DNA of 30,433 bases from Calditrichota bacterium (GTDB lineage Bacteria > Calditrichota > Calditrichia > RBG-13-44-9 > J042): contig JAADJD010000037.1 in assembly GCA_013150955.1 (NCBI GenBank), forward strand, positions 1 to 30,433, in the 5' to 3' direction. The first letter of the stretch is position 1. Every line of letters begins with the position of its first letter. The notes beneath the pieces were generated by a model. The model was not told the DNA's origin. It made no database searches and saw nothing but the letters and a program-made list of their open reading frames with translations. A program made the position numbers and the translations under genes. Below are positions 426 through 2,419 of this stretch, piece by piece.

Positions 426-997
426 GAATATGTTTCATAAACTTGCTTTCAAAGACCTTCTTCCATCGTCCTTCGAACCCCTGTTGTCCCGATGAAATCG
501 GGAAGTCCTAGGCCTCTAGACGATGGGAGCGAATATGTTTCATAAACTTGCTTTTCAAAGATCCTCCTCCACCGTCCTTCGAACCCCTGTTGTCCCGATG
601 AAATCGGGAAGTCCATAGGCCTCTAGACGATGGGAGCGAGTATGTTTCAAAAAATTGCTTTTCAAAGATCTTCCTCCACCGTCCTTCGAACCCCGGTTGT
701 CCCGATGAAATCGGGAAGTCCATAGGCCTCTAGACGATGGGAGCGAATATGTTTCAAAAACTTGCTTTTCAAAGACCTTCCTCCACCGTCCTTCGAACCC
801 CGGTTGTCCCGATGAAATCGGGAAGTCCTAGGCCTCTAGACGATGGGAGCGAATATGTTTCAAAAAATTGCTTTTCAAAGACCTTCTTCCACCGTCCTTC
901 GAACCCCTGTTGTCCCGATGAAATCGGGAAGTTACAGGGCTTACAGACGATGGAATGTGTCGTCTCGCGTTCTGTTTTTCAAAGACCTCCGAACATC
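426..997 (-). repeat. Tandem array of truncated tRNA-Glu units (5 copies)
   Basis: Each unit is a 46-47-base spacer plus a 59-60-base tRNA-Glu fragment. The fragments lie at 472-530, 578-637, 685-744, 792-850 and 898-957; the last is degenerate on its D-arm and acceptor side. The period is 105-107 bp. Read on the minus strand each fragment has the 5' acceptor strand, the D arm, a remodelled anticodon arm (perfect 7-bp stem TCCCGAT/ATCGGGA with triloop TTC) and the T arm up to TTCGAA. There it breaks into the next spacer, so the 3' T strand and the 3' acceptor strand are missing. The palindrome is identical in all five copies (487-503, 593-609, 700-716, 807-823, 913-929), while spacers and the T-stem base C/G vary. 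The intact tRNA-Glu shares the spacer immediately upstream of it. Short open frames across the array look accidental. Confidence 0.93.
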
Positions 998-1027
998 AAA
1001 AAAGCGTTGCATCATTCGATGCAGCGC
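998..1027 (-). terminator. Rho-independent terminator of the Pro-Arg-His tRNA cluster
   Basis: On the minus strand GCGCTGCATC and GATGCAACGC form a 10-bp stem (one G-T pair) with a 4-base loop, followed by six T residues. It lies about 45 bases beyond the tRNA-His 3' end and marks the upstream border of the tRNA-Glu repeat array. Confidence 0.8.
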
Positions 1028-1073
1028 CAAATATAAAAATCAAAACGAAAGAAAAAAATAAAAAAATTTTTTG

Positions 1074-1148
1074 GGTGAGTGAGGGGACTTGAACCCCCGA
1101 CCCCCAGGGCCACAACCTGGTGCTCTAACCAACTGAGCTACACTCACC
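1074..1148 (-). tRNA. tRNA-His (anticodon GTG)
   Basis: The anticodon stem CCAGG/CCTGG closes the loop TTGTGGC with anticodon GTG. The acceptor has eight pairs including an encoded extra G at position -1 opposite C73, the identity element recognised by histidyl-tRNA synthetase. The D arm is TAGCTCAGTTGGTTAGAGC and the T loop is TTCAAGT. CCA is not encoded. It is the last tRNA of the Pro-Arg-His cluster, followed by an A/T-rich run and the terminator at 998-1027. Confidence 0.95.
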
Positions 1149-1211
1149 ATTTGCAAATTGAAATTTATAAAACATCTGTAACGGTGTCAACCCACTTAAA
1201 ATTCTCTCTGG

Positions 1212-1284
1212 CGCTCCCTGGAGGATTCGAACCCCCGACCAACGGCTTAGAAGGCCGCTGCTCTATCCGCTGAGCTAAGGGAGC
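1212..1284 (-). tRNA. tRNA-Arg (anticodon TCT)
   Basis: Acceptor GCTCCCT pairs with AGGGAGC, with discriminator G. The D arm is TAGCTCAGCGGATAGAGCA. The anticodon loop CTTCTAA gives anticodon TCT, which reads AGA and AGG. The T arm contains GTTCGAATC. CCA is not encoded. It lies between tRNA-Pro and tRNA-His, all on the minus strand, and is probably co-transcribed with them. Confidence 0.95.
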
Positions 1285-1307
1285 GACCGGTTGGATTAAT
1301 AATTTGG

Positions 1308-1382
1308 TCGGGGCGACTGGATTTGAACCAGCGACCCCCTGCTCCCAAGGCAGGTGCGCTAACCAGGCTGCGCTACGCCCCG
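1308..1382 (-). tRNA. tRNA-Pro (anticodon TGG)
   Basis: Acceptor CGGGGCG pairs with CGCCCCG, discriminator A. The D arm is TAGCGCAGCCTGGTTAGCGC. The anticodon stem CCTGC/GCAGG closes the loop CTTGGGA with anticodon TGG, and the T arm contains CTGGTTCAAATCCAG. CCA follows directly in the genome (1305-1307), unlike the other three tRNAs here. It is the first intact tRNA of the Pro-Arg-His cluster, and the array of truncated tRNA-Pro units abuts its 5' end. Confidence 0.96.
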
Positions 1383-2419
1383 ACTATTCTATGGCCTATC
1401 TTTCTCAACTTCTCTTCAATCCCATCACCAGCTCCGGTATCCCCGGAACCCGCGACCCTGGTGCAAAGCACCATGCGCAAACCACTCCGCGCCACGCCCC
1501 GACTATTCTATGGCCTATCTTTCTCAACTCCTCTCTAATCCCATCGTCAGCTCCAACATCTCAGAACCAGCGACCCTGGTGCAAAGCACCATGCGCAAAC
1601 CACTCCGCGCTACGCCCCGACTATTCTATAACCAATCCTTCTCAACTCTTCTCTAATCCCATCACCAGCTCCGGTATCCCCGGAACCCGCGACCCTGGTG
1701 CAAAGCACCATGCGCAAACCACTCCGCGCTACGCCCCGACTATTCTATAACCAATCCTTCTCTACTCTTCTCTAATCCCATCGCCAGCTCCGGCATTCCC
1801 GGAACCAGCGACCCTGGTGCAGGGCACCATGCGCTAACCAGGCTGCGCTACGCCCCGACTATTCTATGGCCTATCTTTCTCAACTCTTCTCTAATCCCAT
1901 CTCCAGCTCCAACATCTCAGAACCAGCGACCCTGGTGCAAAGCACCATGCGCGAACCAGGATGCGCTACGCCCCGACTATTCTATGGCCTGTCTTTTTCA
2001 ACTTCTCTTCAATCCCATCGCCAGCTCCGGCATCCCCGGAACCAGCGACCCTGGTGCAAAGCACCATGCGCTAACCAGGCTGCGCTACGCCCCGACTATT
2101 CTATGGCCTATCTTTCTCAACTTCTCTTCAATCCCATCACCAGCTCCGGCATCCCCGGAACCAGCGACCCTGGTGCAAAGCACCATGCGCGAACCAGGCT
2201 GCGCTACGCCCCGACTATTCTATGGCCTATCTTTCTCAACTCTTCTCTAATCCCATCGCCAGCTCCAACATCTCAGAACCAGCGACCCTGGTGCAAAGCA
2301 CCATGCGCGAACCAGGATGCGCTACGCCCCGACTATTCTATAACCAATCCTTCTCAACTCTTCTCTAATCCCACCGCCAGCTCCAACATCTCAGAACCAG
2401 CGACCCTGGTGCAAAGCAC
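1383..2419 (-). repeat. Tandem array of truncated tRNA-Pro units (8 full, 1 partial)
   Basis: Units start at 1383, 1502, 1620, 1739, 1859, 1976, 2095, 2214 and 2332 (period 117-120 bp); the last breaks off at about 2419 within the hairpin. Each has a spacer of about 62 bases and a tRNA-Pro fragment of about 57 bases. Read on the minus strand the fragment keeps the acceptor 5' strand CGGGGCG, the D arm with its GCGC/GCGC stem, a replaced anticodon arm (perfect hairpin TGGTGC-TTT-GCACCA) and the T arm as far as CTGGTTC. There it switches into the spacer, so the 3' acceptor half is absent. One copy (about 1817-1829) has a changed triloop but an intact stem. The spacers mix two alternative versions of at least three segments. 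The long open frame over 1866-2567 is made of the repeat and is unlikely to be a gene. Confidence 0.93.

Follow-up and report, generated by a model that had tools for sequence, protein, structure and literature searches.

Some integrative elements use the 3' ends of tRNA genes as attachment sites, with an intact tRNA on one side of the element and a displaced 3' piece on the other. In E. coli, the rtT repeats of the tyrT operon are tandem repeats that hold a short 3' piece of the adjacent tRNA. SegB of the T-even phages is a free-standing GIY-YIG nuclease needed for tandem amplification of a tRNA-Tyr segment via homologous recombination, and segB is statistically enriched near tRNAs of a wide range of isotypes (PMC13096335). 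The C. abyssi genome paper describes a palindrome, aAACCGTTgaAACGGTTt (PMC5317091), that is different from those reported here.

The DNA analyzed here (the window; 30,433 nucleotides from a Calditrichota bacterium, assembly GCA_013150955.1) is the whole of contig C24 in a genome of 4.07 Mb and 66 contigs. Read along the minus strand, it carries a Pro array, tRNA-Pro(TGG), tRNA-Arg, tRNA-His, a Glu array and tRNA-Glu(TTC), followed by a terminator-like hairpin, a GIY-YIG ORF, a tRNA-Glu fragment and the contig end. The features are as follows:

1-39, minus strand: palindrome-scarred tRNA-Glu copy at the contig end
11-27, minus strand: Glu palindrome in the contig-end scarred copy
32-301, minus strand: GIY-YIG nuclease ORF, 89 aa from the ATG at 301
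352-425, minus strand: intact tRNA-Glu(TTC), ordinary anticodon arm CCGGC-CTTTCAC-GCCGG
426-961, minus strand: Glu array of tandem 105-107 bp units
487-503, minus strand: Glu palindrome copy 1
593-609, minus strand: Glu palindrome copy 2
700-716, minus strand: Glu palindrome copy 3
807-823, minus strand: Glu palindrome copy 4
913-929, minus strand: Glu palindrome copy 5, in the degenerate unit
1073-1147, minus strand: intact tRNA-His, between the Glu and Pro arrays
1209-1284, minus strand: intact tRNA-Arg(TCT), between the Glu and Pro arrays
1305-1382, minus strand: intact tRNA-Pro(TGG)
1383-2419, minus strand: Pro array, eight 118-119 bp units and a truncated ninth ending at 2419
1459-1473, minus strand: Pro palindrome nearest the tRNA, TGGTGC-TTT-GCACCA
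1577-1591, minus strand: Pro palindrome, TGGTGC-TTT-GCACCA
1696-1710, minus strand: Pro palindrome, TGGTGC-TTT-GCACCA
1815-1829, minus strand: Pro palindrome with changed loop and kept stem, TGGTGC-CCT-GCACCA
1933-1947, minus strand: Pro palindrome, TGGTGC-TTT-GCACCA
2052-2066, minus strand: Pro palindrome, TGGTGC-TTT-GCACCA
2171-2185, minus strand: Pro palindrome, TGGTGC-TTT-GCACCA
2289-2303, minus strand: Pro palindrome, TGGTGC-TTT-GCACCA

Each Glu unit consists of tRNA positions 1-27, the palindrome TCCCGAT-TTC-ATCGGGA (TCCCGATTTCATCGGGA, minus strand), positions 45-59 and a leader; in the unit lying farthest upstream (to about 961), the 5' part is degenerate. Six of these palindromes are found in the window, five in the array and one at 11-27. 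Each Pro unit consists of tRNA positions 1-28, a palindrome, positions 46-58 and new sequence, and the eight complete palindromes have the form TGGTGC-N3-GCACCA, usually with a TTT loop. Fold predictions match the described hairpins of both units. The copies are not called as functional tRNAs: ARAGORN and Rfam detect only the four true tRNAs of the window, whose anticodon arms have the ordinary 5-bp stem and 7-nt loop. A gathering-threshold scan of the window matched no Rfam family except tRNA, the rtT RNA family included.

An earlier note on this DNA had described the two hairpins, the ordinary 5-bp stems and 7-base loops of the true tRNAs, and a single Pro copy in which the loop is changed and the stem kept. 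All of this is exact (the changed copy, at 1815-1829, has CCT for TTT), and a sixth Glu copy, at 11-27, lies outside the range that the note covered. As it had proposed, copies of unrelated tRNAs do have a recurrent hairpin in place of the anticodon arm. The Pro hairpin is a true replacement (15 nt versus 17 nt); the Glu hairpin, at 17 nt the length of the true arm, also admits a reading as a 5-bp stem and 7-nt loop, in which TTC still stands at the anticodon position and the pairs 32-38 and 33-37 have become possible. Drift of the anticodon arm is rejected as the source of the Glu hairpin because the TCCCGA/TCGGGA stem is common to copies of tRNA-Glu(TTC), tRNA-Glu(CTC), tRNA-Asp and tRNA-Asn. 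The proposed break in the T loop is present in both arrays of the window, where tRNA identity runs to position 59 (TTCGAA) in Glu units and position 58 (GGTTC) in Pro units, but it is not general, as other arrays keep the tRNA 3' end.

These other arrays were found by comparing the tRNAs of the genome with their own flanks. Tandem tRNA copies also lie beside tRNA-Asp, tRNA-Asn, tRNA-Glu(CTC), tRNA-Pro(CGG) and tRNA-Ser, with perfect palindromes that lie either in the anticodon arm or in the T loop. In most of them the tRNA 3' end is kept and the 5' end is absent; the Asp, Asn and Glu(CTC) arrays and one array at Pro(CGG) lie downstream of the tRNA and start in or near the D arm. The stem TCCCGA/TCGGGA is common to the Asp, Asn and both Glu arrays and the stem TGGYGC/GCRCCA to the Pro arrays, while in the Ser copies the anticodon arm is retained and the T loop is interrupted by CCTGCCTG...CAGGCAGG. 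Genome-wide, there are 24 TCCCGA palindromes (0 in a reversed-pattern control), 20 of them in tRNA arrays; nine TGGTGC palindromes (1 in the control), eight in tRNA arrays; and seven matches to CCTGCCTG (0 in the reversed control), all seven in tRNA arrays. A dispersed REP-like palindrome, the analogy drawn in the earlier note, is therefore rejected for this genome, whose palindromes lie almost exclusively in tRNA arrays.

Three further observations concern repeats and hairpins. In a tRNA-Asp array (L025), several copies bear, in addition to the anticodon-arm palindrome, a hairpin (GGGC-GCAA-GCCC) in place of the T arm. A tmRNA-like gene of this genome (L014, about 1460-1820, minus strand) contains long palindromic stretches of the type CCTGCCTGCC...GGCAGG; hairpins of the same sort may have been inserted into this structured RNA as well. 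Dispersed copies of a repeat of the type AACCCAGATTATGCATTAGACCACGAATTACACGAATTAACACAAAT, which also has an inverted counterpart, are found at 24039-24141, 28234-28380 and 28450-28576 of the window and at about 960-1105 of L013; they lie between genes and also within the tRNA-Ser array locus.

At the contig end, the GIY-YIG gene beside the Glu locus, which the earlier note had missed, has its stop codon (TAG) inside the D-loop sequence of the next tRNA-Glu fragment. Positions 1-71 of the window are repeated as the first 71 bases of contig C50 (L008 1-71; a 71-nt overlap), so C24 breaks inside a tRNA-Glu repeat, and the two contigs are, judging by this overlap, probably neighbours in the genome. 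On C50 the scarred tRNA-Glu copy continues to a complete tRNA 3' end, beyond which lie a terminator-like hairpin and another GIY-YIG gene, the second at this locus and truncated. The resulting anatomy, which we refer to as a cassette, is an intact tRNA, in some cases a terminator, a GIY-YIG gene of about 80-90 aa, and a scarred second tRNA 3' part with a perfect palindrome in place of the anticodon arm or within a loop. It is found in this genome at Glu (window 1-425 and C50) and at Pro(CGG) (L015, where the nuclease stop codon again lies inside tRNA sequence), and in relatives at Cys, Ser, Val, Asn, Asp, Glu, Thr, Pro and Leu. The plainest view of the unit is locus L100, in which an intact tRNA-Cys is followed by two identical 300-bp units of nuclease and scarred tRNA-Cys copy, bounded by repeats of the tRNA-Cys 3' end. 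No integrase is present in the element: the 300-bp unit of L100 contains only the GIY-YIG ORF, and the same is true of the window unit.

Many relatives, and members of no fewer than two other phyla, have scarred copies beside a small tRNA-linked GIY-YIG gene. Forty Calditrichota genomes were searchable, and inserts were extracted mechanically from Calditrichota loci as the gap between two tRNA-matching pieces. A perfect stem of at least 6 bp was present in 41 of 45 distinct gap inserts of tRNA copies, versus 0.68 expected by shuffling, a figure that holds for these loci, most of which were picked because they contain GIY-YIG genes or tRNAs, and not for tRNA flanks in general. The stems vary between relatives by paired, compensating changes and the loops vary freely: Asn stems are TCCCGA/TCGGGA, TCCCGG/CCGGGA or TCCCGC/GCGGGA, Pro stems are TGGTGC/GCACCA or TGGCGC/GCGCCA, and Cys stems are CCCGCC/GGCGGG in Calditrichota and three Ignavibacteria-type records and CCCCGA/TCGGGG in three others. 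Compensatory stem change was the test that the earlier note had set for its hairpins, and the paired changes in the Asn, Pro and Cys stems bear it out. In a hand-collected table, the outer stems across families comprise 250 Watson-Crick pairs, one G-U pair and one mismatch; as these sequences were picked as palindromes, the table demonstrates variation and not frequency.

Palindrome type and position are common to homologous copies of different families. The Cys palindrome follows position 37 in both Calditrichota and Ignavibacteria and the Asn palindrome follows position 36/37, while the Glu, Val and Pro palindromes replace the anticodon arm exactly. T-loop palindromes occur in Ser, in Asp of relatives, in Thr and in Leu, D-loop palindromes occur in the Ser copies of genome G017, and a tRNA-Pro copy at an Acidobacteria locus (L175) has four palindromes, three of them within the anticodon loop and the fourth within the T loop. 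At the Glu locus of G024 (L106), the downstream scarred copies carry two palindromes: one stands in for the anticodon arm and the other lies in the T arm. Palindromes of the form TCCCGA-N-TCGGGA number 65-223 in each of G037, G033, G027 and G015, far above control; in G037 (223) and G033 (117) they are not only at tRNAs, and in some relatives they may have a life of their own. In other relatives (L046, L047, L052 and L053), single TCCCGA palindromes were seen within repeats resembling GTCATTGCGAG/GTCATGCTGAG. G017 is assembled as a single contig of 4,978,541 bp and contains an eight-copy tRNA-Ser array with a nuclease gene. As this is the same kind of array, an assembly artefact is unlikely, yet C24 does end inside a repeat.

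The GIY-YIG domain matches Pfam PF01541 (59.8 and 46.1 bits), and residues Y8, Y19, G21, R29, H33 and E65 are invariant in 21 sequences. We regard the cassette proteins as predicted nucleases and do not claim that they belong among the homing endonucleases. Small GIY-YIG genes were split into two sets by their score to a profile of tRNA-linked members. A same-strand tRNA lies within 250 bp of 34 of 53 genes in the tRNA-linked subfamily and of 0 of 20 in the sister subfamily (Fisher p = 1.6e-7, relatedness not corrected), in a split that is not blind to linkage because the profile was made from tRNA-linked members. Among the tRNA-linked members without a tRNA at this distance, 11 lie where the contig breaks off, and most of the others are second tandem copies. 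When gene surroundings of the sister subfamily were inspected, no rRNA or other RNA neighbours were found. At Cys and Ser loci the matched GIY-YIG domain starts as little as 1-25 nt past the tRNA, and the ORF often ends at or near the scarred 3' copy of its own tRNA. A tree of 64 sequences (79 columns, many forks unresolved) has 13 changes of tRNA isotype (shuffled mean 43.3) versus 25 changes of host family, a clustering that is also expected from old paralogy and vertical descent and that therefore does not establish horizontal movement. The nearest solved chains are UPF0213 proteins, followed by an SLX1 homologue. A viral origin is rejected: IMG/VR contains no relative of the Cys-type nucleases, and phage records contain only 20 matches under 60% identity. 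The named-genome scan used Cys-type query sequences only, the all-isotype alignment being too diverse.

Comparison with close relatives shows that the arrays have been gained or lost recently and that their presence is lineage-specific. G001, of the same genus, has neither the Glu nor the Pro array at the corresponding sites: the gap from tRNA-His to tRNA-Glu is 100 bp in G001 versus 647 in the window, and the distance from tRNA-Pro to the next conserved gene is 359 versus 1398. The Pro-Arg-His-Glu cluster of G003 likewise lacks the Glu array. Past tRNA-Glu in G001 (L200 310-490) lies a sequence that, by eye, resembles a decayed GIY-YIG gene, with a palindrome, TCCCGATG...CATCGGGA, inside it.

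Our favoured explanation, to which we give about an even chance of being correct, is that the arrays are the remains and amplified, mostly non-autonomous copies of small, SegB-like, tRNA-targeting GIY-YIG cassettes. It is built on the cassette anatomy and the many isotypes at which this recurs, on nucleases that are tRNA-linked and cluster by isotype, on a palindrome that is conserved yet changes in compensating fashion, and on presence or absence that differs between lineages. The predicted nuclease would cut at or near its cognate tRNA gene, and repair from a cassette-bearing copy would insert the cassette and restore the tRNA. Unequal exchange between the direct repeats could then build arrays with or without a nuclease gene, by analogy with SegB at tRNA-Tyr. 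Most tentatively, the palindrome might disable the second copy as a tRNA and alter sequence that would otherwise recreate the cutting target; alternatively, it might be extruded as a cruciform that such a nuclease attacks. A role as a barrier keeping homology under the recombination minimum is a weak candidate, since an uninterrupted stretch of 70 positions is common to the Ser copies and the true tRNA. The GIY-YIG gene adjoining the Glu locus ties the arrays to a nuclease cassette; no nuclease gene is present at the Pro(TGG), Asp, Asn and Ser array loci of this genome, so for these we infer descent from cassettes. The model covers upstream arrays, with their 5' copies, less simply than downstream arrays.

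A simpler history would be neutral decay, in which ordinary slippage or exchange duplicates tRNA genes with their flanks, REP-like palindromes land in the dead copies and the GIY-YIG genes are incidental. The copies are indeed always non-functional, several arrays lack a nuclease, and in some relatives palindromes are plentiful outside tRNAs, several within other repeats (L046, L047, L052 and L053). We nevertheless consider this unlikely, though a real contender, given that few palindromes of this genome lie outside tRNA arrays, that homologous copies of different families share palindrome type and position, and that the association of GIY-YIG genes with tRNAs is as strong as the 34/53 versus 0/20 above.

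The units might instead be transcribed with the tRNA and fold as a small RNA, acting as a decoy or processing signal, with the palindrome kept as an RNA hairpin. For the Pro units, a 14-bp helix with four G-U pairs is predicted between the T-arm strand and the new sequence that follows the break in the T loop, and three units alter three adjacent pairs of this helix with pairing kept; Pro-unit fold z-scores against shuffles are -4.0 and -2.5, and of the four inserts that lack a perfect 6-bp stem, two contain a G-U pair. Against this, covariation in the Pro array, though suggestive, is not clearly above a shuffle control (31/500), the z-scores of units from other loci spread from +1.0 to -4.8, the hand-collected stems, with one G-U pair and one mismatch beside 250 Watson-Crick pairs, are more like DNA palindromes, and the arrays are absent from G001 of the same genus. 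The RNA reading is thus the weaker one, and we judge it improbable. The earlier note had proposed a dedicated tRNA-mimic element with one defined layout (5' acceptor strand, D arm, triloop hairpin, T-loop break). Both arrays of the window have this layout, but other arrays of the same genome start in or near the D arm, keep the 3' end, lose the 5' end and carry the palindrome elsewhere, in T loops here and also in D loops in relatives; as a general definition it is already contradicted, and we regard such an element as very improbable.

Under the cassette reading, we suggest, with somewhat less than even confidence, that these are undescribed mobile elements of 300-600 bp, present in Calditrichota, Ignavibacteria and at least one Acidobacteria genome and composed of an isotype-dedicated GIY-YIG gene and a scarred copy of the target tRNA. 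They would restore the tRNA gene that they invade and give rise to non-autonomous tandem arrays, and their palindrome would serve either as a recognition cruciform or as a scar that confers self-immunity. In the full-text literature searched, with most subscription journals and preprints outside it, neither tRNA copies scarred by palindromes nor chromosomal GIY-YIG cassettes dedicated to one isotype were found described, and we provisionally regard the cassettes as undescribed. If this reading is correct, chromosomal tRNA genes are home to a family of minute selfish elements in which every lineage keeps to a single isotype, and these elements multiply next to indispensable single-copy genes and leave them intact. 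The tandem arrays that flank tRNAs would then have an explanation, as would many contig breaks at tRNA loci in these genomes, such as that at window position 1.

The cassettes resemble several known systems in part. Like REP/REPIN palindromes and the C. abyssi aAACCGTTgaAACGGTTt, theirs are short palindromes in many copies, but the sequences differ and those of this genome occur almost only inside tRNA-gene copies; the dispersal through extragenic regions typical of REP/REPIN is not seen in this genome, although palindromes are dispersed in some relatives. The rtT repeats are likewise tandem repeats with a piece of the adjacent tRNA, but have no palindrome replacing an arm and no nuclease. The cassettes share with tRNA-integrating elements an intact tRNA and a displaced 3' piece, and differ in their size (about 300-600 bp), GIY-YIG gene and palindrome within the displaced piece; a unit of this size with a GIY-YIG gene leaves no room for an integrase. 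UPF0213/YhbQ-type proteins (PDB 1zg2, 1ywl) are the nearest solved relatives, with a single GIY-YIG domain in about 80-100 aa; in contrast, the sister GIY-YIG subfamily of these genomes is not tRNA-linked. SegB is a phage system that amplifies intact tRNA-Tyr and, in the part of the paper available to us, neither isotype-clustered subfamilies nor a palindrome-scarred tRNA copy are described for it (PMC13096335). It is nonetheless, by analogy, the nearest experimental parallel: a free-standing GIY-YIG nuclease that adjoins a tRNA and is linked to tandem amplification of a tRNA-containing segment (PMC13096335).
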